From positions 248,001 to 312,000 of the forward strand of contig JAQGEQ010000284.1 of NCBI GenBank assembly GCA_034620365.1: a DNA stretch of 64,000 nt, in the 5' to 3' direction. This stretch comes from Pegea sp. RAD2-039. Taxonomy: Eukaryota > Chordata > Thaliacea > Salpida > Salpidae. The notes under the pieces are model-generated. The model did no database searches and was not told where the DNA came from. It saw only the letters and a list, made by a program, of their open reading frames with translations. Position 1 is the first letter of the stretch; the number at the start of each line of letters is the position of its first letter. This document shows, piece by piece, positions 27,506 to 63,546 of the stretch. The translations under genes and the position numbers were made by a program.

Positions 27506-30193
27506 ATGTCTGAACAAGAAGCAAAAGCCACTACTGTTGCTGTTGATGATAGTCCTGCTGTAGAACAAAAAGCTGACGTCACTGAGTTAACCAGCGAAGT
27601 TGAGAGCGTAGCCGCACCCGCTAATGTTACCGGAGAAGAAGAAAAAAAGGAGACTGAAGTGACTTCTGAGGCTGCAGATACAGTTCAAACTGAAGCATTA
27701 TCAGTAGACGAAGCATCTGAAACAGTTACCGAAGAAGTAAAACAAAGTGAAAATATGGGAGAAACTATTGCTGGTTAGTTTTTATTTATAACTTTGATAT
27801 TATTTAAAATAGCTTTAGTTTATAGAAGCAAAATTCGTATTTATCTATTAGAAGTATTTGTTACAATTAGAAATAGTTTACAATAAACAAATAAGTTTTA
27901 TTTTTATGCAATTTATAGTTGGTTGTTATGTATGAATGTAGGTTTTTAAGAATTGTTAAATTTTTCTGTAAAACTTTTACTTGGTAAATATCATACCAAC
28001 TTAAAGATCGTAGTATTAGGACTACTCATGCACAACCACACTTTCGTGTTGTTTGTAAAAGCTTTTAAAAATAGAAATTAAGAAAACAGATATCTTTTAA
28101 AAATTAAAGATTTTAATGTTCAAAAAAGTTTAAACTTTTTACTGAGCTTTCTTATAGCTAAATTTGTCGCTTGTATTTAAAAATATGTAAGAATATTTTA
28201 AACTTACATTATTTAGATTTAATTTCAATAATTTTTAAATCAAATATTTATGTAAAGTATTTTTTGAATCTTATCAAATGTCATTGATTTCTTAGTATTT
28301 GATTTTGTAATTAACATGATGGTTATTTACTTATTTTATTGGTTCTTTTAACTATTTGTTGAAACTTATAAAACATTTATTTAATTTTGAAAATTAACAA
28401 CTTGACAATTTTTCAAACTTGTTATGTACTTTGGACTAGTTTAGAAAAATATTGTCATTCAAATATATTTAAGTTATTGATTTTTATTATGCTTTAAAAA
28501 CAATTTATGAAAAAGCAATTATTAGAAAAATAAAGAAATTTTATTATCAACTTTTTATTTATTCTTACATAATATACAAAAAAACAATAAAACTTTTATA
28601 ATTTCAGAAATTAGTCTTTATTGTTGCAGTGAATGCTTTAATTTTCTAACCACTTATTGCGCAATATTTTATAAAAAAACTGAAATTTTAAAAGCAGTGG
28701 TTATTTAGTAATATAATTTTTCACATGAAAAATAATTAAAATTTTTTAGCTATCGATTTTTAAGTTTGAATTTTATATAAATTTCATGAAAAACTTCAGA
28801 ACCACGCCTTTCATGAGTGAAATTCTACCACTAGTGGCGCTATTTGCACTACTCATGAAATTCAGTCTTCAATTTGCATGACAAACTTTTTAGCAAATGT
28901 TTTTTCAGCAATTTTTTTTGCCACAAACTTTCTAATTGTTTTTTCAATTTTAATTCTTACTTTGAAATTGTTATTTTAGAGCCTGCTGCTGAAGTTGTTG
29001 TCGAGGAAAAAGTTGCTCCATCTGAACCTACTGTTACTACGGTTTGTTTACCGTCTTTTCTTTGAACTTTTTTCGAGTCTTTAGAAATTTTAAGGAATTT
29101 AAAACCTTTTTCACTGAGAACATATTGAAATATTCAGTTCATGAACTCTTTTGTGGAATGTAAATAAATCTTCTCTTAATCTTATAGACTGTAGAAGCTG
29201 AAGAAACTAAGCCTGCCGAAAATGAAAAACCCGCCGAGACCGCTCCTGCTGTAGAGGAAGCTGCTCCTGCTGCTGAAGAGGCTGCTCCTGCTGCCGAAGA
29301 AGCTGCTTCTGCTACCGAAGAGGCTGCTCCTGCCGCTGAAGAGGCTGCTACTACTGCCGAAGAAGCTGCTCCTGCCGCTGAAGAAGCTGCTACTGCTGCC
29401 GAAGAAGCTGCTCCTGCTGCTGAAGAAGCTGCCCCTGCTGCCGAAGAGGTTGCCCCTGCTGCTGACGAAGCCGCTGCTTCTGAAAAACCAGCTGCCGAAT
29501 CTTCTGGAAAAAAGGAGAAGAAACGTTCTCGTTTGTCCACAAAGTCATTCAAGCGATTGTTTAAATTCAATCTTTTTCAAAAAAAACCAAAAGCAGAAGG
29601 TAAAGTTGAAGTCATAAAGAGCTTGATGAAAGAATCTAGAAAAATATCCCTTTTAGAAATTATTCCATACTGTCTTTTTATTTTTAAGAAACTCGACTCG
29701 TCTTATTTTGAAACACAATATAATTTGATATTTCACTTATTACTCTTGGGAAATTTTATTAAGCAATTATATCCACAACAACTTACAGCACACACTCAGT
29801 AAAAATTTTACTTTTTCCAAATATTTCGAATTTTTTATTACAGAACCTCAAAAAGCTGCTGAAAATGAGGCAGCTGCCCCAGAAGAAACACCAGCTACAG
29901 AAGGTGACCAACCACCAGCTGAAGCTAGCACCGAAGCTGCTACAGTCAAAGAAAATGGTAAGTAGAGACAATTAATCAAGTTTAAAAAACTTTCAAAAGT
30001 TTAATTATTTTCACTTTGCATTGAGCTGACTTTTTGGTTAACAATTTTCTTTATTTGCTAAGGAACTGAAGCTAATGGTATGGCAGCAAAAGAAACAGCA
30101 GATGAGAAACCAACAGAAGTAGAGACTCCTGCTACTACTGCTACCGAAGAAACCAGCCCGGCTCCTGCAGCAGTAGAAGAAGTTGCTGGTTGA
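27506..30193 (+). CDS. MARCKS-like acidic Ala/Glu-rich protein
   Basis: Seen: five exons, 27506-27773, 28980-29041, 29188-29599, 29844-29957 and 30063-30193, totalling 987 nt and 328 aa, with all phases agreeing. The protein is dominated by Glu, Ala, Pro and Thr. Exon 3 carries about ten copies of an EEAAPAA-type heptad (21-bp coding repeat, residues ~133-205). Then, at residues ~218-245, comes a strongly basic stretch with spaced Ser and Phe: KKEKKRSRLSTKSFKRLFKF followed by NLFQKK. Known: MARCKS and MARCKSL1 are acidic, disordered, Ala/Glu-rich proteins of similar length with one basic Ser/Phe effector segment. That segment binds PIP2 membranes, calmodulin and actin and is switched by PKC. 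Inference: a membrane/cytoskeleton PKC substrate. Odd: the start is MSEQ, not MG, so it lacks the N-myristoylation site of true MARCKS. Exon 5 uses an AAG acceptor. Strong codon signal; the family name is moderately sure. Confidence 0.85.
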
Positions 30194-41055: not shown

Positions 41056-41395
<340 letters not shown>

Positions 41396-42550
41396 CAATA
41401 AATGCGAAGGACGGTGCTCGAAGAGAGCTCCTCTCGCTAACACATATTCTCACGAATAACATCTATTACATTAGAAATATAGAAAGCAGAAGATGTAACC
41501 CATGGCATTTCAGTAGTCCTCAAAGCATATAACAATCAACAATTACATGGAACTACAATAACCTTAAAAAAAATCATAGTTTAGAAATGATAATGTTGGC
41601 GATATTATAACGGTTCAACTTCTTTTTGGACAACGCGAGCGACTTCGACATGACAATGTCTGATGGCAGCTTGTTCCATGTACTAATTGTGCTGTATGAG
41701 AAAAAAGTTGTTCTGATTAACTTAATCAAAAGATTGATAAGGAAGTATACATCCTTAAAATTAACAGTCTTTATAATAAGGTAGACAAGGTTGATTGACT
41801 TTGCAAAGATTTTGGAAACATAATTATGCCATTTAAAGTCAGACGATATGGTAATGCCGAGGTCTAGGACCGAAGATATTCGTTGAATAATAAATCCATT
41901 GATGGAATATTAGTTCAAGGAATTTGCAGTTGGTTTAAGAGAAAAAGTTATAAGTTCAGACTTTGTGGACTGGATTCTGAGCTGCCAATTCGTAGACCAG
42001 TCTTCTACAGTGTGTAGTGTAGTTTGAAGTTTTGAAGGATTACAAGATATTATCTTAATGTCATCTGCATACTTAAACAAACTGACATCATCTACTGTTA
42101 CTAGTCTTCTGATGAGGTCTTCAATGAAAATTAAAAAGAGAAGGGGACCCAGAACAGAACCCTGAGGAACACCACTAGTGATTTGACTAGAAGTAGATAA
42201 AGATCTTTCTGCACGAGTCTGTTGGGTTTTAACTGATAAGTAATCTTCAGTCCACTGTAAGATAAAGCTGTTGATTTTTAGCAAAATCGAGGTGTATGAA
42301 GTCACAAGGAGTATTACATTCATAATAGGCTGTAAGCTCATTAAGAAAAGTGAGATATTGAGTCAGGGAAGATCTCCGTTTCACAAAGGCATGCTGGACA
42401 TCAGATATTAGATGGTGCTCCATCAAATGACTGGTCATATGATTGTGAATGATATGCTCTTGAGTTCTGCAAATAACTGAAGTCAGCGAAACTGGTCTGT
42501 AGTTAAATGCAGTGTTTCTGGGACCCTTTTTATAAATTGGAGTCAATTTG
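41396..42550 (-). mobile_element. truncated CR1-like non-LTR retrotransposon
   Basis: Seen: about 1.15 kb on the minus strand. 42546-42247 encodes the front of a reverse transcriptase (TPIYKKGPRNTAFNYRPVSL, then VQHAF.KRRSSLTQYL and HLDFAK). 42341-41910 encodes the palm core SGVPQGSVLGPLLFLIFIEDL, then FKYADDIKIIS and a C-terminal KSELITFSL. About 500 bp of 3' UTR follows, ending CGCATTTATTGTAAATAAATAAA. Known: YADD and SGVPQGSVLGPLLF are standard non-LTR RT motifs, and CR1-group elements lack poly(A) and end in short tandem repeats. The endonuclease domain and the 5' part are missing (5' truncation near 42,550). The segment between LDFAK and the palm is deleted with a frameshift, so the copy is dead. 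CR1-like is the best clade guess; a related Jockey-group clade is possible. Confidence 0.9.
41910..42546 (-). pseudogene. reverse transcriptase fragment, deleted and frameshifted
   Basis: Two overlapping minus-strand frames carry separate parts of one RT. The first holds RT blocks 1 to 3 up to the first catalytic region (HLDFAK) and then runs into unrelated residues and a stop. The second starts at INSFILQWTEDYLS and keeps SGVPQGSVLGP and YADD. The join has lost about 30-40 codons after LDFAK, including the usual AFD block with its catalytic Asp, and changes frame. The copy cannot give an active enzyme. Confidence 0.88.
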
Positions 42551-46106: not shown

Positions 46107-49100
46107 TTAGAGTTCTAAAAAACAAAGTTACAAAAATGATTAACTATACAACAGATAGTTAGGGCAAACATATATGCTTCTAAAAAAAGTAAAATATAAA
46201 CAAAAAACGTTTAATAGATTAACATATCAATAAACCCATTCAGAGAATAAATAATCAACTAATATATTACTAACCAGTGCATTCACTTCCATCACCACTG
46301 AAGCCTTCATCACAAACACAAGCACCATCTACCATAGAAGCATTTTCATCACAAGTATCACGTCGTCTACGTTCCATTGCTAGAAACATTTTTAGAAATA
46401 TTTAGAAATATTTTAGTAATTAGTTTAAAAGTCTTCAATACAATCTATTACAAATAGAATTTCTATTTTGTTTACATTAAAAGGTAGTCTAAAATATTTA
46501 AGTAAGTAGAAATAAAAAGCTATTTTATGAACTAAGTAATCAACTAATCTAATACTAACCAGTGCATTCACTTCCATCACCAGTAAATCCTTCATCACAA
46601 ACACAAGCACCATCTACCATTGAAGCATTTTCATCACAAGTATCACGTCGTCTACGTTCCATTGCTAGAAACATAAAACATTTTAGTAATTACTTTAAAA
46701 GTCTTCAATAAATTATATTACAAAATGACTTTCTATTTTGTTTACAATAAAATGTTTTCTAACAACTTTAATTTTGTAGAATTAAAAAGCTATTTTATGA
46801 ACTAAGTAATCAACTAATCTAATACTAACCAGTGCATTCACTTCCATCACCAGTAAATCCTTCATCACAAACACAAGCACCATCTACCATTGAAGCATTT
46901 TCATCACAAGTATCACGTCGTCTACGTTCCATTGCTAGAAACATAAAACATTTTAGTAATTACTTTAAAAGTCTTCAATAAATTATATTACAAAATGACT
47001 TTCTATTTTGTTTACAATAAAATGTTTTCTAACAACTTTAATTTTGTAGAATTAAAAAGCTGGTTCATGGAATAGGTAATCAATTAATATATTACTAACC
47101 AGTGCATTCACTTCCATCACCAGTAAATCCTTCGTCACAAACACAAGCACCATCTACCATTGAAGCATTTTCATCACAAGTATCACGTCGTCTACGTTCC
47201 ATTGCTAGAAACATAAAATATTTTAGTAATTAGTTTAAAAGTCTTCAATAAATTATATTACAAAATGACTTTCTATTTTGTTTACAATAAAATGTTTTCT
47301 AACAACTTTAATTTTGTAGAATTAAAAAGCTGGTTCATGGAATAGGTAATCAATTAATGTATTACTAACCAGTGCATTCACTTCCATCACCAGTAAATCC
47401 TTCATCACAAACACAAGCACCATCTACCATTGAAGCATTTTCATCACAAGTATCACGTCGTCTACGTTCCATTGCTAGAAACATAAAATATTTTAGTAAT
47501 TAGCTGAAAAGTCTTCAATAAACTATATTACAAAATGACTTTCTATTTTGTTTACAATAAAAGGTATTCTAACAACTTTAATTATGTAGAATTAAAAAGT
47601 TGGTTCATGGAATAGGTAATCAATTAATGTATTACTAACCAGTGCATTCACTTCCATCACCAGTAAATCCTTCATCACAAACACAAGCACCATCTACCAT
47701 TGAAGCATTTTCACAACAAGTATCACGTCGTCTACGTTCCATTGCTAGAAACATAAAATTTTTTAGTAATTAGTTTAAAAGTCTTCAATAAATTTTATTA
47801 CAAATTAACTTTCTATTTTGTTTACAATAAAAGGTATTCTAACAACTTTAATTATGTAGAATTAAAAGGCTGGTTCATGGAATAGGTAATCAATTAATAT
47901 ATTACTAACCAGTGCATTCACTTCCATCACCAGTAAATCCTTCATCACAAACACAAGCACCATCTACCATTGAAGCATTTTCATCACAAGTATCACGTCG
48001 TCTACGTTCCATTGCTAGAAACATAAAATATTTTAGTAATTAGCTGAAAAGTCTTCAATAAATTATATTTCAAAATGACTTTCTATTTTGTTTACAATAA
48101 ATGGTATTCTAACAACTTTAATTATGTAGAATTAAAAAGCTGGTTCATGAAATAGGTAATCAATTAATATATTACTAACCAGTGCATTCACTTCCATCAC
48201 CAGTAAATCCTTCATCACAAACACAAGCACCATCTACCATTGAAGCATTTTCATCACAAGTATCACGTCGTCTACGTTCCATTGCTAGAAACATAAAATA
48301 GTTTAGTAATTAGTTTAAAAGTCATCAATTAATTATATTACAAATTAACTTTCTATTTGTTTACAATAAAAGGTATTCTAACAACTTTAATTATGTAGAA
48401 TTAAAAAGCTGGTTCATGGAATAGGTAATCAATTAATATATTACTAACCAGTGCATTCACTTCCATCACCAGTAAATCCTTCGTCACAAACACAAGCACC
48501 ATCTACCATTGAAGCATTTTCATCACAAGTATCACGTCGTTTACGTTCCATTGCTAGAAACATAAAATAGTTTAGTAATTAGTTTAAAAGTCATCAATTA
48601 ATTATATTACAAAATGACTTTCTATTTTGTTTACAATAAAATGTTTTCTAACAACTTTAATTTTGTAGAATTAAAAAGCTGGTTCATGGAATAGGTAATC
48701 AATTAATATATTACTAACCAGTGCATTCACTTCCATCACCAGTAAATCCTTCGTCACAAACACAAGCCCCATCTACCATTGAAGCATTTTCATCACAAGT
48801 ACCACGTCGTTTACGTTCCATTGCTAGAAACATAAAATATTTTAGTAATTAGTTTAAAAGTCTTCAATAAATTATATTACAAATTAACTTTCTATTTTGT
48901 TTACAATAAATGGTATTCTAACAACTTTAATTATGTAGAATTAAAAAGCTGGTTCATGAAATAGGTAATCAATTAGTATATTACTAACCAGTGCATTCAC
49001 TTCCATCACCAGTAAATCCTTCATCACAAACACAAGCACCATCTACCATTGAAGCATTTTCATCACAAGTATCACGTCGCTTACGTTCCATTGCTAGAAA

Positions 49101-52100
49101 CATCAAATAGTTTAGTAATTAGTTTAAAAGTCTTCAATAAATTATATTACAAAATGACTTTCTATTTTGTTTACAATAAAATGTTTTCTAACAACTTTAA
49201 TTACGTAGAATTAAAAAGCTGGTTCATGGAATAGGTAATCAATTAATATATTACTAACCAGTGCATTCACTTCCATCACCAGTAAATCCTTCATCACAAA
49301 CACAAGCACCATCTACCATTGAAGCATTTTCATCACAAGTATCACGTCGTCTACGTTCCATTGCTAGAAACATAAAATAGTTTAGTAATTAGTTTAAAAG
49401 TCTTCAATAAATTATATTACAAAATGACTTTCTATTTTGTTTACAATAAAATGTTTTCTAACAACTTTAATTTTGTAGAATTAAAAAGCTGGTTCATGGA
49501 ATAGGTAATCAATTAATATATTACTAACCAGTGCATTCACTTCCATCACCAGTAAATCCTTCGTCACAAACACAAGCACCATCTACCATAGAAGCATTTT
49601 CATCACAAGTATCACGTCGTCTACGTTCCATTGCTAGAAACATAAAATATTTTAGTAATTAGTTTAAAAGTCTTCAATAAATTATATTTCAAAATGACTT
49701 TCCATTTTGTTTACAATAAATGGTATGCTAACAACTTTAATTATGTAGAATTAAAAAGCTGGTTCATGAAATAGGTAATCAATTAGTATATTACTAACCA
49801 GTGCATTCACTTCCATCACCAGTAAATCCTTCATCACAAACACAAGCACCATCTACCATTGAAGCATTTTCACAACAAGTATCACGTCGTCTACGTTCCA
49901 TTGCTAGAAACATAAAATATTTTAGTAATTAGCTGAAAAGTCTTCAATAAATTTTATTACAAAATGACTTTCTATTTTGTTTATAATAAAAGGTATTCTA
50001 ACAACTTTAATTATGTAGAATTAAAAAGCTGGTTCATGGAATAGGTAATCAATTAATATATTACTAACCAGTGCATTCACTTCCATCACCAGTAAATCCT
50101 TCGTCACAAACACAAGCACCATCTACCATTGAAGCATTTTCATCACAAGTATCACGTCGTCTACGTTCCATTGCTAGAAACATAAAATATTTTAGTAATT
50201 AGCTGAAAAGTCAACAATAAATTATATTACAAATTAACTTTCCATTTTGTTTACAATAAAAGGTATTAAATCAACTTTAATTATGTAGAATTAAAAAGCT
50301 GGTTCATGGAGTAGGTAAGCAATTAATATATTACTAACCAGTGCATTCACTTCCATCACCAGTAAATCCTTCATCACAAACACAAGCACCATCTACCATA
50401 GAAGCATTTTCATCACAAGTATCACGTCGTCTACGTTCCATTGCTAGAAACATCAAATAGTTTAGTAATTAGTTTAAAAGTCTTCAATAAATTATATTAC
50501 AAATTAACTTTCCATTTTGTTTACAATAAAAGGTATTCTAACAACTTTAATTTTGTAGAATTAAAAAGCTGGCTCATGGAATAGGTAATCAATTAATATA
50601 TTACTAACCAGTGCATTCACTTCCATCACCAGTAAATCCTTCGTCACAAACACAAGCACCATCTACCATAGAAGCATTTTCATCACAAGTATCACGTCGT
50701 TTACGTTCCATTGCTAGAAACATAAAATATTTTAGTAATTACTTTAAAAGTCTTCAATAAATTATATTACAAAATGACTTTCTATTTTGTTTATAATAAA
50801 AGGTATTCTAACAACTTTAATTATGTAGAATTAAAAAGCTGGTTCATGGAATAGGTAATCAATTAATGTATTACTAACCAGTGCATTCACTTCCATCACC
50901 AGTAAATCCTTCGTCACAAACACAAGCACCATCTACCATTGAAGCATTTTCATCACAAGTATCACGTCGTCTACGTTCCATTGCTAGAAACATCAAATAG
51001 TTTAGTAATTAGTTTAAAAGTCTTCAATAAACTATATTACAAAATGACTTTCTATTTTGTTTATAATAAAAGGTATTCTAACAACTTTAATTATGTAGAA
51101 TTAAAAAGCTGGTTCATGGAATAGGTAATCAATTAATATATTACTAACCAGTGCATTCACTTCCATCACCAGTAAATCCTTCGTCACAAACACAAGCACC
51201 ATCTACCATAGAAGCATTTTCATCACAAGTATCACGTCGTTTACGTTCCATTGCTAGAAACATAAAATATTTTAGTAATTACTTTAAAAGTCTTCAATAA
51301 ATTATATTACAAAATGACTTTCTATTTTGTTTATAATAAAAGGTATTCTAACAACTTTAATTATGTAGAATTAAAAAGCTGGTTCATGGAATAGGTAATC
51401 AATTAATATATTACTAACCAGTGCATTCACTTCCATCACCAGTAAATCCTTCATCACAAACACAAGCACCATCTACCATTGAAGCATTTTCATCACAAGT
51501 ATCACGTCGTTTACGTTCCATTGCTAGAAACATAAAATATTTTAGTAATTACTTTAAAAGTCTTCAATAAATTATATTACAAAATGACTTTCTATTTTGT
51601 TTATAATAAAAGGTAGTCTAACAACTTTAATTACGTAGAATTAAAAAGCTGGTTCATGGAATAGGTAATCAATTAATATAATACTAACCAGTGCATTCAC
51701 TTCCATCACCAGTAAATCCTTCGTCACAAACACAAGCCCCATCTACCATTGAAGCATTTTCATCACAAGTATCACGTCGTCTACGTTCCATTGCTAGAAA
51801 CATAAAATATTTTAGTAATTACTTTAAAAGTCTTCAATAAATTATATTACAAAATGACTTTCTATTTTGTTTATAATAAAAGGTATTCTAACAACTTTAA
51901 TTATGTAGAATTAAAAAGCTGGTTCATGGAATAGGTAATCAATTAATATATTACTAACCAGTGCATTCATTTCCATCACCAGTAAATCCTTCATCACAAA
52001 CACAAGCACCATCTACCATTGAAGCATTTTCATCACAAGTATCACGTCGTTTACGTTCCATTGCTAGAAACATCAAATAGTTTAGTAGTTAGTTTAAAAG

Positions 52101-53977
52101 TCTTCAATAAACTATATTACAAAATAACTTTCTATTTTGTTTATAGTAAAAGGTAGTCTAACAACTTTAATTATGTAGAATTAAAAAGCTGGTTCATGGA
52201 ATAGGTAATCAATTAATATATTACTAACCAGTGCATTCACTTCCATCACCAGTAAATCCTTCGTCACAAACACAAGCCCCATCTACCATTGAAGCATTTT
52301 CATCACAAGTATCACGTCGTTTACGTTCCATTGCTAGAAACATAAAATATTTTAGTAATTACTTTAAAAGTCTTCAATAAATTATATTACAAAATGACTT
52401 TCTATTTTGTTTATAATAAAAGGTATTCTAACAACTTTAATTATGTAGAATTAAAAAGCTGGTTCATGGAATAGGTAATCAATTAATATATTACTAACCA
52501 GTGCATTCACTTCCATCACCAGTAAATCCTTCATCACAAACACAAGCACCATCTACCATTGAAGCATTTTCATCACAAGTATCACGTCGTTTACGTTCCA
52601 TTGCTAGAAACATAAAATATTTTAGTAATTACTTTAAAAGTCTTCAATAAATTATATTACAAAATGACTTTCTATTTTGTTTATAATAAAAGGTATTCTA
52701 ACAACTTTAATTATGTAGAATTAAAAAGCTGGTTCATGGAATAGGTAATCAATTAATATATTACTAACCAGTGCATTCATTTCCATCACCAGTAAATCCT
52801 TCATCACAAACACAAGCACCATCTACCATTGAAGCATTTTCATCACAAGTATCACGTCGTCTACGTTCCATTGCTAGAAACATAAAATATTTTAGTAATT
52901 AGCTGAAAAGTCAACAATAAATTATATTACAAAATAACTTTCTATTTTGTTTATAATAAAAGGTAGTCTAACAACTTTAATTATGTAGAATTAAAAAGCT
53001 GGTTCATGGAATAGGTAATCAATTAATATAATACTAACCAGTGCATTCACTTCCATCACCAGTAAATCCTTCGTCACAAACACAAGCCCCATCTACCATT
53101 GAAGCATTTTCATCACAAGTATCACGTCGTCTACGTTCCATTGCTAGAAACATAAAATATTTTAGTAATTAGCTGAAAAGTCAACAATAAATTATATTAC
53201 AAAATAACTTTCTATTTTGTTTATAATAAAAGGTAGTCTAACAACTTTAATTAGGTAGAATTAAAAAGCTGGTTCATGGAATAGGTAATCAATTAATATA
53301 TTACTAACCAGTGCATTCATTTCCATCACCAGTAAATCCTTCATCACAAACACAAGCACCATCTACCATTGAAGCATTTTCATCACAAGTATCACGTCGT
53401 CTACGTTCCATTGCTAGAAACATAAAATATTTTAGTAATTAGCTGAAAAGTCTTCAATAAACTATATTACAAAATAACTTTCTATTTTGTTTATAATAAA
53501 AGGTAGTCTAACAACTTTAATTATGTAGAATTAAAAAGCTGGTTCATGAAATAGGTAATCAATTAATATAATACTAACCAGTGCATTCACTTCCATCACC
53601 AGTAAATCCTTCATCACAAACACATGCACCATCTACCATTGAAGCATTTTCATCACATGAGTCTGTGTGTTGAAACATAATATTAATATTTTTTATTGTT
53701 CATTTTTCCTACTCTATTCGTATTTTTTAATAATTTTCACTAACCCTTTAATTAGATGATTAGTTTATAGAAATGGTTTTTCAGTAGTAACAATTATTAG
53801 TTAAAAAGTTTTGATCGATTTAAAATAGTTGCTTTATATCTTATAATCTCTGATTTATTTTTTAAATTATTAGTCTCTAAATTTGATTTTCTTACTTCGT
53901 CGATTGCGGACAAGGCCAGCGTCGGTTGCAAGAAATAAAGCAGAAAAGAGGAGAACGAAGATTGAAGACTTTTGCAT
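46107..53977 (-). CDS. secreted polyprotein of 28 furin-flanked half-EGF peptides
   Basis: Unrecognised family. Seen: exon 1 (53896-53977) encodes a signal peptide, MQKSSIFVLLFSALFLATDA, then GLVRNRR, and ends in phase 1. Exon 2 (53579-53662, 84 nt) is the first repeat. It is followed by 27 exons of exactly 105 nt, the next at 53309 and the last at 46275-46379, all phase 1-1. An 8-nt exon (46107-46114) gives Glu-Leu-stop. Total about 1002 aa. Each repeat reads A-M-E-R-R/K-R-R, then DTCDENASMVDGACVCDEG and FTGDGSECT: cysteine spacing C-x9-C-x-C-x10-C. This matches the second half of an EGF domain (Cys 3 to 6). Basic sites: RNRR before the first peptide, RRRR 18 times, RKRR 9 times. Known: furin cuts after R-x-K/R-R and carboxypeptidases trim the basics. 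Inference: 28 secreted, near-identical ~31-residue disulfide peptides, possibly hormone, defence, venom or adhesive. The short last exon is the least certain part. Confidence 0.92.
46260..53700 (-). repeat. 270-bp tandem array, 28 exon-intron units
   Basis: Units repeat every 270 bp: a 105-bp exon plus a 165-bp intron. The leftmost spacing is 285 bp and one unit is 269 bp (a missing T in the intron near 48,350). Exon 3' ends lie at 46275, 46560, 46830 and so on to 48180, then at 48449 and every 270 bp to 53579. Introns are about as conserved as exons, so the array was copied or homogenised recently. The two end units are the most diverged (GFSGDG on the left, a shorter exon on the right), as expected when unequal exchange works mainly inside an array. 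Confidence 0.97.
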
Positions 53978-54067: not shown

Positions 54068-54075
54068 CTTATATA
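54068..54075 (-). promoter_or_regulatory. TATA box of the peptide-polyprotein gene
   Basis: TATATAAG on the minus strand, 91 bp before the start codon. Transcription would begin near 54,040, giving a leader of about 60 nt. Its position and canonical sequence suit a strongly expressed tissue-specific gene. A CCTAATCTGCAG acceptor-like site also lies about 16 nt before the ATG, so trans-splicing is not excluded. Confidence 0.6.
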
Positions 54076-57000
54076 CACAAGTTTTAGTGTTTGTAAATCT
54101 GAAAAACCGGTTTTACACGAATTTCAAACGCAAAAACTGTATTTTGGTTTTAGATTATTAATTTGGGATTAACATCTGACTTTATGTCAAGTTGTTTTTC
54201 AGGAAAAACGTTGAGCTTGGTTTCTATATTGGTAAATATGGTTTTAAGCAATTAAGAACTTATTAAGAGTTTTTTATTTACTGATATTTGAAATTTATTT
54301 GCCGTTATGAGAGTTATTGTAAACAACATTTGCTAGCATTGGTGAATTTGATTAATTGCAAACCTTTCCAAGTAATTGTTGGTTTTGGAGTTATTAGAAA
54401 TACATAATTAGATCTTGTCTTCCTTTTCACTTTTGACTTGATTGATTTCATTTTTCCTAATTTTTTCTCGAGTTTTTGTAGTATAAGGTTTAAAATGATC
54501 TTATTTCGTATTATTTTCAGTTATTGGTAATTATCTAATCTAATCCGTAAAATAAATGTTGTTCTTAGTATTTTTGTCGGATCAAAATGACAAATTTATT
54601 TTGGTTAGTCTTAGGTTTTTTAAATCTTCAAAAATTTGTATATTTTATTAGTATATGATTAAAAACGAAAGAGATGTATAAGATTTATGTATCTTATAAG
54701 ACTTCTTTAACTTTTCTCTGACTGAATTATTGATAAGGTGTGATATTTATTTGATAAATATTGTTTATGAAGATTAGTTTAAGGTTTAACCGCAGACAAC
54801 TGTTGGTTTGAACGATGCAAAAGCTCCTGCGTTTGCAGCTTGCTTCGTTACTCATTGCACTTTTGCAATTCTGTACAAATGCCACGTTTTATCTTGGTCT
54901 CGTACAAACTTGGTCACGTTCTTACGAATCAATTTTTTTAAACTAAATGATTGATTGTTCAAACAAGTTTTTTTCATATTTTTAATAAATTCTTGGATTC
55001 ATTTTTTATACAACTTAAAAGAAAATAAATAATATTTTAGACATAATTGCAGTAATGAAAGAATTTTATATTTTAAAAGATTGTGGTTCTGTTATCAATA
55101 ATACAGCTGTCTAAAAAAACATGAAAACTTACTTTCATCTTTTTTATATTATTAAATAAACAAGAATAAAAATTTCTTTTAAATAATTACATCTTGCTGA
55201 GCTTAATTAAATATTTTCAAATGACTTCATTGGTACACGAAATAAGCTCGAAAAATTACTGACATTTTCAAATTTTCTTAGAATAAATTTAATTTATTTT
55301 AATCTAAAAACTTCCGTTGGTATGTATGTAACCAAATCATTATAGAAATAGTATCTTCCATGAACCACTCCTTGTCCATACTACGTGTAACATACTTTCT
55401 ACTTTAGATTGAACTCTACTGATTGAACGTGGCTATACAACCAAACCAGAAAAAATTCTTAAGAAAAGCTATTTTTATATTTTATTTAGCTTTCGTGGTT
55501 TTTCAAACCTACACTTTTCTATCAGCCCAAAATAACTGGTTGTTGGTTGGTTGGTTAATTTTTGCTGCATTTCTAGAATATAATTTATTTTCAACATATC
55601 TCTAAACAATTCAAACGTCCTTGAACTGCGCTTTCAAAACTTTCACAAAAATTGTTTTTTATAATCAATTGATAATTGCTTAATTATATCAACAACATCA
55701 TTTTTGTATGATGAAATAATTGTCAAAAATTTCAATTTGTTCTGATTTCATGTTTAATTAGCCAATCTAGTAATTCAACTTTAGATGATTTCAAAAAATA
55801 GATGAGTAATCCATAAGTGAATTCAATTTAAAAAGTATCTTATATATATATCTTTCTTTAGCTGAATATCAAACTTATTTTTGATATTCAGTATAGTATT
55901 TTAGTATTAAATTTAATTAATTCAAAAAGATTAAAATCCAAACTAAGTATAAGATAGTCTAGCCACTAGTACTTAGTTTGATTTATTAGTGAAACAGTTT
56001 TTTTCATTTCCTTGGGCTATACTGGTTTAAACAAACTCAAGCTATACACTATTAGCTAAAACAAATATTTATTTGTACATTTTTATCTATGAAATCATTT
56101 GATAAAAAAATTAAGATTAAAAAATGCTAAAAATAGATATCTATTTTCAAATTTGACCTTGAGCTTTATTTGCAATAATATTTATCATTACAAAGTATAT
56201 AATTTTTTTAAATTGTTAGTTCTTTCATTTAAATCAAAAAGTACTTCACAAACGAAAGCTGATCAACAGACAATGTCTTTTTTAAGTAATTGGAATAAAC
56301 TGTTTTTCTGGTTTTAAAACAATTGGTTTAAGTTATTATTAGATCAATAAATAAAATAAGAATAAATTTAATTTAGGGCCTTATCTATATTTTACAATTA
56401 AGTTTATCAAAGCAAAAACTTATACTACAAACTTTTACACATTTATAAAATTATCTTTTATTTTTGAGTAAATTTTATTCATATATTACTAACTTTTTTC
56501 ACATTTTTTCTGAAAAAGTTATAATTTAATCATTTATAACAAGCGTTTTTAGTACAAGGCTAATTTTAAGATGTTAGAATTAAAAATAGAAATAAACTTT
56601 AAGCAGCAAATAAAATAGATGATTTTGAAGACTATGGAATTCTTTCATCTTATCTAAAATGTCTTTAAAAATTAATCGTAAATTTTACATGATTATTATT
56701 TGTATCAATATTTGAATTTAAAATTAATAAAATTTATTATTTTGCTGATTTAGTCAAGAATTAACTCAAATAAATTTGATAAATTGAGTAGGTTTTAAAT
56801 AAATTTTATTTGTAAAATGTTTTATCAAGTTAAAGAAACTTTTTTTACATTAGCTACAATTTTTACTTTAAATTTTACTGTTTTTTAGTTTTTATTGTAA
56901 GTTCGAACAGAAAGACTAATATAAAAGTTTGAAATAATTTCTTGCAAAGACTTATATTTCTATCAACAAAACATTTTGATAAATTCTCATTTTTTGCCAA

Positions 57001-61059: not shown

Positions 61060-61989
61060 TTATTTAGAACAATTAAAAACGCATTTTGTAAAATTAGGTA
61101 TCGAAAAAGCATACAGGACAGGGTTCACAACACTATTCGACCAAGCTAGACATAAACTAAACGGATATACTTTTTTATAAAGTATTAAATCAAAATTGAA
61201 AAGATTCCACCAACCACCAACAACCGATAGCAAGTTTAGTGTTTGAATTGGTAACCAGCAAACTATAAAAGCGACTATTAGAGCAGTATTTAATACAAAG
61301 ATCCTTTTTTTAGGTGATCTTTGGCTTGAAGTCAAAGTTTTTTTGTTTACAATGCACATAATACGAATGTAGCAAAAAGTTATAGCTATTAATGGAAAGC
61401 AAAAGCCAGCAGTAAATTTGAAAAGATCAATAAGACCAGTAATTATCATTTTTGAATGGTTTTCAGGGATAAAAAAGTGACATTGAAAATGAAGTTCTGA
61501 AGTAGTACTAAAATTTGAAACTTCAGATTTCATTGAAACTGATTTTTCACTTTCAGTATAAAGTTGTCTTAATCTCATTAAAGGAATTCGGTAAAACGTG
61601 AAACAAATAGATAAAATCCATATAATGGCAATATTCCGTTTCAAAATAGATAATCTTCTCGATTTGGACTTTTTAGAAGATGTCATGGTAACCCATCTCT
61701 CAATAGCAATTGCTGTTAAAAAAAAGTTACTGGAAAACATGTTAAAAGTTGGGACTGTTCCACAAATCTTGCATAATATCAGACCAAACGGCCATTTCAT
61801 GCCATTTCTATATATAAAAGCCCAGAATGGAATTGTTGAAACAAAAAGTAAATCAGAAATTGACAAATTGAACAAGTAAGCCATGGTAGGCGACCATTTT
61901 CTTGGTTTCTTGATGAAAGCGATGATGGTAAATAAATTTCCAATGAGTCCAGTTATAAATATAATGATTAATGTTATAGTTACCCACAT
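61060..61989 (-). CDS. class A (rhodopsin-like) peptide-type GPCR
   Basis: Seven-helix receptor at the cell surface, coupled to G proteins. Seen: one uninterrupted minus-strand frame of 309 codons from ATG at 61989 (MWVTITLIII). Helix 1 has GLIGN. Helix 2 has NLSISDLLF and the gamma-group motif IPFWAF. Cys in LILCKI pairs with Cys in ECL2 (HFQCHFF). Helix 3 ends ERW in place of DRY. Helix 6 has CWLP and helix 7 NSVVNPVLYAF. The tail is short with two Cys (KCVFNCSK), possible palmitoylation sites. ECL2 has sequons NFS and NHS. Known: PFW in helix 2 with this layout is common in chemokine, angiotensin and other peptide receptors. The ligand cannot be told. Odd: only one residue precedes helix 1. 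The frame is open for eight more codons (T-T-D-S-N-L-D-K) behind an AACAG acceptor-like site, so a small upstream exon probably supplies the true N-terminus. Confidence 0.9.
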   Translation of the reverse strand: MWVTITLIIIFITGLIGNLFTIIAFIKKPRKWSPTMAYLFNLSISDLLFVSTIPFWAFIYRNGMKWPFGLILCKICGTVPTFNMFSSNFFLTAIAIERWVTMTSSKKSKSRRLSILKRNIAIIWILSICFTFYRIPLMRLRQLYTESEKSVSMKSEVSNFSTTSELHFQCHFFIPENHSKMIITGLIDLFKFTAGFCFPLIAITFCYIRIMCIVNKKTLTSSQRSPKKRIFVLNTALIVAFIVCWLPIQTLNLLSVVGGWWNLFNFDLILYKKVYPFSLCLAWSNSVVNPVLYAFSIPNFTKCVFNCSK

Positions 61990-63546
61990 CTTATCCAAAT
62001 TACTATCTGTTGTTTAAGTTTATATCAATTATTATTATGACTCTTTACGCTATTGATTCAAAAATCTTTATTAATTTGAAAACTCATTTTAACAACAAAT
62101 AATAATATCTTGATAATAATTATTGTAAAATTTAAAATAATAGGAATTAAAGTTATTATATTATATACATATATACAGAAAAATTTCTAAATTAAAGCAA
62201 GTTTTTAAAAAACTTACTGTTAATAGTAATCTTAAAAATAATTCATTTAGTCTACAACTGCCTTTTGCTCATTATTTCCAAGTTATAATTTTACTTAAAT
62301 ATTTATTGTAAAATCTACTAAATCATTAGATTATCAATTCTTTCAACTTAATAATTCTCTAAATGAAATTCAAACTAAGTTTTTGTCAAACTTGTATCTT
62401 AAAAAAATCTTTGAAATAAAACTGGTTTTAGTTTCACTTCTAAACATTTGTTTTCTATAACAGTGTTTCACTTAAAAATCGTATTTGTTCCATCTTAGTA
62501 AAATTTGTTTATTTATAGTTCCAACTGAAGGAAAAAAGAGACATCAATACCAATAAAACAGCAGATATCAATGTTCCATAAGAGACTTTAAACGAGGAAC
62601 AAATTTACAAAATTTTTTCAAGCTAATTGTTAATTAGATTGTACAAGAAAACAAATGATCAATAAAAACCTTTAAAAACATCTACGTTCAAGGTGTTGAG
62701 TTCTTTTAAACCAACTTTTATAACATACTTTTAAATGTGTTTGATAACCACTAAAAATAGCTCTGAAGACACTTTTGTTTCAAACAAAATAGTTTTAATA
62801 ACTTTACGAAACTGTCAATTAAAATAAACAAGTTTTCTTTCCAAACTTTAATCCAACTCATAAACCTCTATCACAATATTTATAGTAGCTTTTGATTCCA
62901 ATTCTTGTAAAAAGTTCTTTGAAGATAATTCCATATTTTAATCAGAAAGATCCTACAAAGTTTGTTTTGGTAAAATGTTTTCATTTTTAAATATTTCTGA
63001 TCTGACTTTGTATATCCAAATTAAATTCAATTTGTTGTTGTATAAAACCTACTTTAAGTAGTAAATTTGATTTAATAACAAATAGATGCGTACATTGATT
63101 AAGACAAGTTGTTTAAGCAGTTATTGATCTGCCTAGAAAATATATTTCTGGTGTTTTAGCATCTTATAAAATTTCCAGTAAAAAAATTAAGAACTAACAA
63201 GTCTAGTTGTTTTGCTTTTAACACTGTGGTGATAAAAAACATTTATTCAAAAGATATTAAACTTAAGTCTGATGTAAGTTCAATAACTTGATAAGTGACA
63301 ATGAAAAAGTTTATCTATATTATGGTTGAAAGCAAATAACAACAATTATCTAGAACAGTGATTCCTTTGAATATAAAATCTTTGTTTTAAAATATTTATC
63401 AGATTACGTTGTAGTTTTACTTGTTTTTTAGGAGGTGAAGAACTTGGTCACCAACCAGATAACTCACAGGCTACAAACATGAAGAAAAATGAAAATGTAT
63501 AGTTAGTCTTTACAAACAAAAAGTAAAAAAAGATCTTTGATGCTGG
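61990..63546. other. upstream flank of the GPCR, no supported gene
   Basis: AT-rich. An N-terminal exon of the receptor is expected here on the minus strand, but I could not place it. The acceptor-like AACAG lies at about 62,010. Confidence 0.35.

Follow-up and report, generated by a model that had tools for sequence, protein, structure and literature searches.

The analyzed window, a stretch of 64,000 nt that corresponds to C75:248001-312000 of a 105.7-Mb, 387-contig genome, contains a gene on the minus strand at 46107-53977, in agreement with the coordinates given in a preliminary description. A TATA-like element of putative function, TGTATATAAG, lies at 54068-54077 (−), about 100 bp upstream of the ATG; it was recognized in an alignment of the upstream regions of this gene and of a second gene on contig C370, which also carries TGTATATAAG upstream. 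The coding part of exon 1 (53896-53977, −; 82 nt) encodes a putative signal peptide, called by eye, and a short propeptide that ends in GLVRNRR, and it terminates in a phase-1 donor. This exon splices in frame to exon 2, a shorter first copy of the repeat (53579-53662, −; 84 nt), NSCDENASMVDGACVCDEGFTGDGSECT. The presence of a phase-1 signal-peptide exon in front of the array, as had been proposed, was borne out.

Exons 3-29 (46275-53413, −) are twenty-seven 105-nt copies with phase 1-1, the first at 53309-53413 and the last at 46275-46379, and each of them encodes A-M-E-R-(R/K)-R-R followed by the cysteine unit. TRF places a 270-bp array at 46406-53657, with 26.9 copies and 96% matches. The full copies were selected by a pattern (AG, 105 nt, GTTAGT, and GF in the translation). 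Their starts are 270 bp apart (269 bp once, 285 bp once) and, because this spacing is even, no copy was missed by the pattern. All 27 full copies have the donor GTTAGT and the acceptor GTTTCTAG, lack a stop codon, and encode an Ala across the splice junction, so that the description of twenty-seven 105-nt exons plus a shorter first copy, with uniform phases and one open frame, is confirmed. The introns between full copies are 165 nt long in 24 of 26 cases, and retention of any of the 26 would introduce an in-frame stop. There are 15 distinct DNA sequences among the 27 full exons, which, together with the independent array on C370, argues that the array is neither a chance product nor an assembly echo.

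For the terminal exon, there are two candidates. Candidate A (46115-46179, −) comprises 65 nt and would encode a hydrophobic tail of about 20 residues, whereas candidate B (46107-46114, −) contributes only 8 coding nt, that is, E-L-stop. The TAG stop of candidate A overlaps the acceptor of candidate B, and the pyrimidine tracts are equal (16/20 at the acceptor ending at 46180 and 16/20 at that ending at 46115). The 8-nt stop exon and the product of about 1,002 residues that had been described hold for candidate B, with which the product has 1,002 amino acids, but this is one of two possible acceptors, and the other one yields 1,021. The ending of candidate B is similar to a short E-F-D-L-S-stop that can be read by eye at the C370 locus. 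Altogether, 30 exons are predicted to be spliced into one frame, and the array is best read as one gene with symmetric exon phases that encodes a secreted precursor with many peptide copies.

Several further features are present in the window. A rhodopsin-type GPCR open frame at 61060-62013 (−) matches the whole 7tm_1 profile (E 4.3e-45); the matches annotated as relaxin-3 receptor come from fish and sharks and have 25-34% identity, and the best match, an unnamed one, has 78%. A 21-bp tandem repeat at 29242-29482 (+) lies within an open frame of 204 aa that is rich in Ala, Pro and Glu, and a perfect TTTA microsatellite of 85 copies occupies 41056-41395.

The repeats are not completely uniform. 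A tetrabasic site had been ascribed to every repeat, and it is indeed present in 27/27 full copies (RRRR in 18, RKRR in 9), but the first copy in exon 2 lacks a site of its own, with RNRR being supplied by the signal exon. Similarly, the claim that the same four-cysteine peptide is encoded throughout applies to 25/27 full copies; the remaining two have five cysteines. Both of these copies (47640-47744 and 49799-49903, −) carry an Asp-to-Cys change, which would leave one cysteine unpaired.

The locus on C370 has the same design, with an 82-nt signal exon, an 84-nt first copy and 26 full copies (27 copies in total), which are about 267 bp apart in an array at 18.5-25.5 kb. Among the full copies, which were selected by pattern, splice sites and frame are intact in 26/26, and one begins with CG instead of CA. 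A third array was not found in the 105.7-Mb genome; the only other matches, on C114, C81 (two) and C264, have E values from 0.005 to 0.14 and fall on ordinary EGF exons. When the C370 region from 9000 to 35900 was compared with the window, the only shared flanking stretches matched 41.3-41.7 kb and 43.4 kb of the window, and these stretches are a dispersed repeat. A reverse transcriptase fragment (RVT_1, E 2e-18) lies at 41910-42362 (−), adjoining the stretch at 41.3-41.7 kb that also matches C370.

To compare the two loci, consensus exons were built from the 27 window copies and from 25 of the 26 C370 copies, and consensus introns from the introns of modal length (24/26 in the window, 17/24 on C370). 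The consensus exons differ at 4 of 105 bases, in four codons, and all these differences are synonymous, none nonsynonymous, such that the consensus peptide is identical at both loci. The consensus introns are 63% identical. For the intron core, the 63% identity over aligned columns is no higher than 60 shuffles can produce (mean 55%, maximum 69%); over all columns, however, the identity of 60% exceeds the shuffled maximum of 51%. Thus, the introns of the two loci are still recognizably related. Between the loci, the signal exons have a dN of 0.29 and a dS of 0.70, whereas the values for the unit are 0 and 0.22. The dN of 0 for the unit, while introns and signal exons diverged, therefore indicates that the peptide is conserved. 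Codon variants within the arrays are synonymous in 5 cases and nonsynonymous in 6 in the window, and in 8 and 5 cases, respectively, among the 25 C370 copies; hence 13/24 of the variants are silent, compared to about 21% (21.3/102 sites) by chance. However, the synonymous differences between the arrays (4 codons) are fewer than the 14.8 expected at saturation, and the synonymous divergence of the exons is lower than that of the signal exons. Gene conversion confined to exons, or nucleotide constraint, may therefore also act, and the former could account for some of the identity of the peptide between the arrays.

The six cysteines of EGF domains pair 1-3, 2-4 and 5-6. The repeat had been called a half-EGF, and its relation to EGF was corroborated with a profile made from the same genome, built from 77 distinct six-cysteine EGF exons of spacing class 5-8-10 from six regions, in which 97 EGF exons were found. 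In a one-sequence search, the unit matches this profile with E 3.1e-08. The profile alignment places its first cysteine at C2, a methionine at C3, and the remaining cysteines at C4, C5 and C6; the C3-C4 loop is shorter by four residues, C1 is absent, and the tetrabasic run lies near the place of C1. The unit has its phase-1 end one residue plus one base beyond C6, a position also found in 66/97 EGF exons of the same genome (EGF_3-like, DIDEC type), and it shares with these exons C4-x-C5, a 10-residue C5-C6 loop with GF-x-GDG, and an Ala before the place of C3. In contrast, the EGF exons contain all six cysteines and begin with acidic residues ahead of C1, whereas the unit lacks C1 and C3 and has a shortened C3-C4 loop, a tetrabasic start, and a sequon. 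C1 and C3 are thus lost as a pair, and the two other native disulfides, C2-C4 and C5-C6, can still form. By sequence and exon relation, the unit qualifies as EGF-derived, but it looks like an EGF domain without the C1-C3 disulfide, with C2-C4 and C5-C6 kept, a better description than half-EGF. The same genome also contains a large array of six-cysteine EGF exons, one per domain and often 260-290 bp apart (L043 and C67:347-363 kb), a second case of exon multiplication.

The assignment of the first cysteine to C2 deserves comment. With a hand-made profile, the alternative assignment to C3 was disfavoured, with a C3-C4 loop score of −10.4, whereas with C2 the C2-C3 block scored +3.9 and the shortened loop +4.2; these scores cover different blocks and are indicative only. 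The loop block is weak when taken alone, as the observed score was reached in 7.5% of five-residue shuffles and in 0.5% of random draws, and the full profile alignment is the better evidence for C2. Among prokaryote contigs, 191 pattern matches were obtained; the 2 that were confirmed are EGF repeats with six cysteines, each from a proteobacterial bin. One of these (L048:3999-4598, from a deltaproteobacterial bin) contains EGF-like repeats with TCDENATC, close to TCDENASM of the unit, and because the first cysteine of TCDENATC is C2, this agrees with the C2 mapping.

Against Pfam EGF_3 (PF12947), a single unit scored 20.7 bits, below the curated cut-off of 28.5, and a tandem query of five units reached a summed score of 47.6; the match starts at profile position 13 and does not settle the choice between C2 and C3. 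With four cysteines (five in the two copies mentioned above), the unit falls short of a six-cysteine EGF domain. A sequence search of the PDB returned ThreeFoil, which is not an EGF protein (E 0.014), followed by uromodulin (E 0.084), and the best uromodulin alignment was mixed, with the first cysteine at C3 in one unit and at C2 in the other. A structure model of 7 of the 28 window copies had a mean pLDDT of 80.6 (60.5-80.6 in five models), a pTM of 0.43, and one hairpin, and its fold matches to regions of NELL1 and nidogen-1 were weak. EGF growth factors of the ErbB-ligand type have a signature with an eight-residue C5-C6 loop and an Arg before C6. Such a growth factor was rejected as an interpretation, since the unit has a C5-C6 loop of 10 residues, and Glu and not Arg before C6, in 27/27 full window copies.

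The features of a multi-copy peptide precursor, that is, a signal peptide, a repeated peptide, and convertase sites between the copies, can all be read from the sequence. A basic tetrad is present in all 53 full copies of both arrays (RKRR in 9, RRRR in all others), and every one fits R-X-R-R. An Asp at P4', a residue among those characterizing good furin substrates (PMC3545927), is found in 50/53 copies, such that the site context would suit furin. Two residues that the same study counts as unfavourable also occur: Gly at P1', largely inactivating, in a single copy of the window array, and Gly at P4', poorly tolerated, in a single copy of the C370 array. A multibasic motif alone is not a sufficient predictor of furin cleavage (PMC3545927). 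Furin-like convertases are encoded in the genome: there are 12 matches to S8 peptidases and 5 to the P-domain on four contigs (these matches are exon pieces, not genes), and furin is the best PDB match for a 298-aa piece from C76 (E 8.5e-95) and for a 118-aa piece from C20 (E 1.4e-35). As the cut site lies inside the exon, each peptide would consist of 28 residues of one exon and the final A-M-E of the next. The consensus peptide, DTCDENASMVDGACVCDEGFTGDGSECTAME, has a calculated mass of 3157.05 Da with two disulfides and a pI of about 4.1 before glycosylation. An NAS sequon is found in 28/28 window copies, and 25/26 full C370 copies have a sequon (NAS or NSS), with IAS in the remaining one; at the corresponding place, a sequon is present in 0/77 ordinary EGF exons.

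Taken together, these data suggest that the gene probably encodes a secreted multi-copy precursor that releases about 28 acidic peptides carrying two disulfides and a sequon for N-glycosylation. This reading, already advanced in the preliminary description, gains strength from the second locus and the furin-like convertases, with splicing, expression and cleavage being predicted. The signal peptide would direct the chain to the secretory pathway, a furin-type convertase would cut after each RRRR or RKRR, and a carboxypeptidase would remove the basic tail. The output would be about 28 acidic peptides of about 31 residues, each carrying one NAS sequon and having a reduced EGF fold with the presumed disulfides C2-C4 and C5-C6. 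The most likely source of the unit is the 3' portion of a normal phase-1 EGF exon, and the array would supply dosage through copy number. The peptide is most likely an abundant, extracellular secreted product, possibly a signal, a pheromone, or a gland secretion.

The main competing explanation, which we regard as unlikely but worth serious attention, is that the chain stays uncleaved as a secreted repetitive structural or mucus-like glycoprotein, with linked mini-EGF beads and the Arg tetrads as charge clusters. Such a protein would fit the sequon that all window copies have and the 77 ordinary EGF exons lack at that place, as well as the alternation of strongly acidic units with four Arg, and structural proteins often contain tandem arrays. 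However, the tetrads all conform to R-X-R-R and vary only to RKRR, a motif that a charge cluster does not need, and furin-like enzymes are encoded in the genome. Less probable still is a multi-copy precursor of a venom or defence peptide and not of a signal. Copy number, conservation and disulfide stabilization would suit any mass-produced secretion; yet the peptide is strongly acidic, unlike most antimicrobial peptides, and its C5-C6 loop is unlike that of ErbB-type EGF ligands. We give little credence to the idea that any subset of copies is included by alternative splicing, the array setting peptide dose or chain length without a fixed 28-mer: any skip of the phase 1-1 exons would remain in frame and the splice sites are near-identical, but this mode would be compatible with a multi-copy secreted precursor and does not exclude it. 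A non-functional, satellite-like exon expansion, for which the homogeneous 270-bp tandem array might speak, can practically be dismissed in view of 53/53 full exons without a stop at the two loci, exons conserved while introns diverged, and a signal exon kept at both.

Peptide copies are cut from one precursor in the multi-copy neuropeptide precursors and in the plant cyclotide and proteinase-inhibitor II precursors, and the insect ENF/GBP peptides are among the small disulfide or EGF-like peptides. These systems differ from the window gene in having linear peptides, few copies, or one peptide per precursor. The preliminary statement that nothing comparable could be named was too strong. LEKTI (SPINK5) is described as a secreted preproprotein with 15 potential inhibitory domains and furin-driven processing into several products (PMC10218509). 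Like the window gene, it is a secreted chain of many disulfide domains, with furin-type processing only predicted for the latter; in contrast, its 15 domains are Kazal-type, it yields multi-domain fragments, and it has no near-identical EGF-derived copies. LEKTI is a precedent for the principle, but not for near-identical EGF-derived copies at one exon each. The rotifer MMR mate-recognition genes encode a surface glycoprotein with a signal peptide and 1-9 full copies of nearly identical tandem helical repeats of 87-92 residues, with a shortened last repeat and concerted evolution (PMC3495898). In contrast to the cysteine units of the window gene, the word cysteine is absent from the MMR paper (PMC3495898). 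Two of the six mmr primers, searched in the genome with up to 3 mismatches, gave 0 matches. Size and base composition of the genome had initially pointed to a Brachionus rotifer, but none of the 64 matches of the GPCR next to the array carries a rotifer name, COX1 was not found, and published rotifer assemblies (PMC8351084, PMC11954553; nine monogononts, 24.95-31.14% GC) speak neither for nor against a rotifer. As LEKTI and the MMR genes are described in these papers, neither system has near-identical EGF-derived peptides at one exon per copy.

A protein database queried with shortened precursors of 302 aa and 109 aa yielded no relative; judging from one gene, the GPCR with its best match at 78%, the source species is apparently absent from this database. 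Among viral contigs, 5 pattern matches were obtained and none was confirmed. Literature searches for comparable precursors retrieved no match to the design, which does not imply absence in print, and four words of the unit occurred in none of the papers searched.

These results raise the possibility, which we put forward tentatively, of a lineage-restricted new class of peptides: N-glycosylated two-disulfide mini-EGFs in which a convertase site replaces the first EGF loop and the exon has been amplified, such that about 28 exons give rise to as many near-identical peptides, with at least two such genes in one genome. The two-disulfide EGF fold is offered as a testable case. If true, copy number would set the dosage of a disulfide peptide that both loci have kept despite diverged introns and signal exons, and a structural EGF exon would have given rise directly to a secreted peptide made in bulk, through the loss of one disulfide, the gain of a cleavage site, and the multiplication of the exon.
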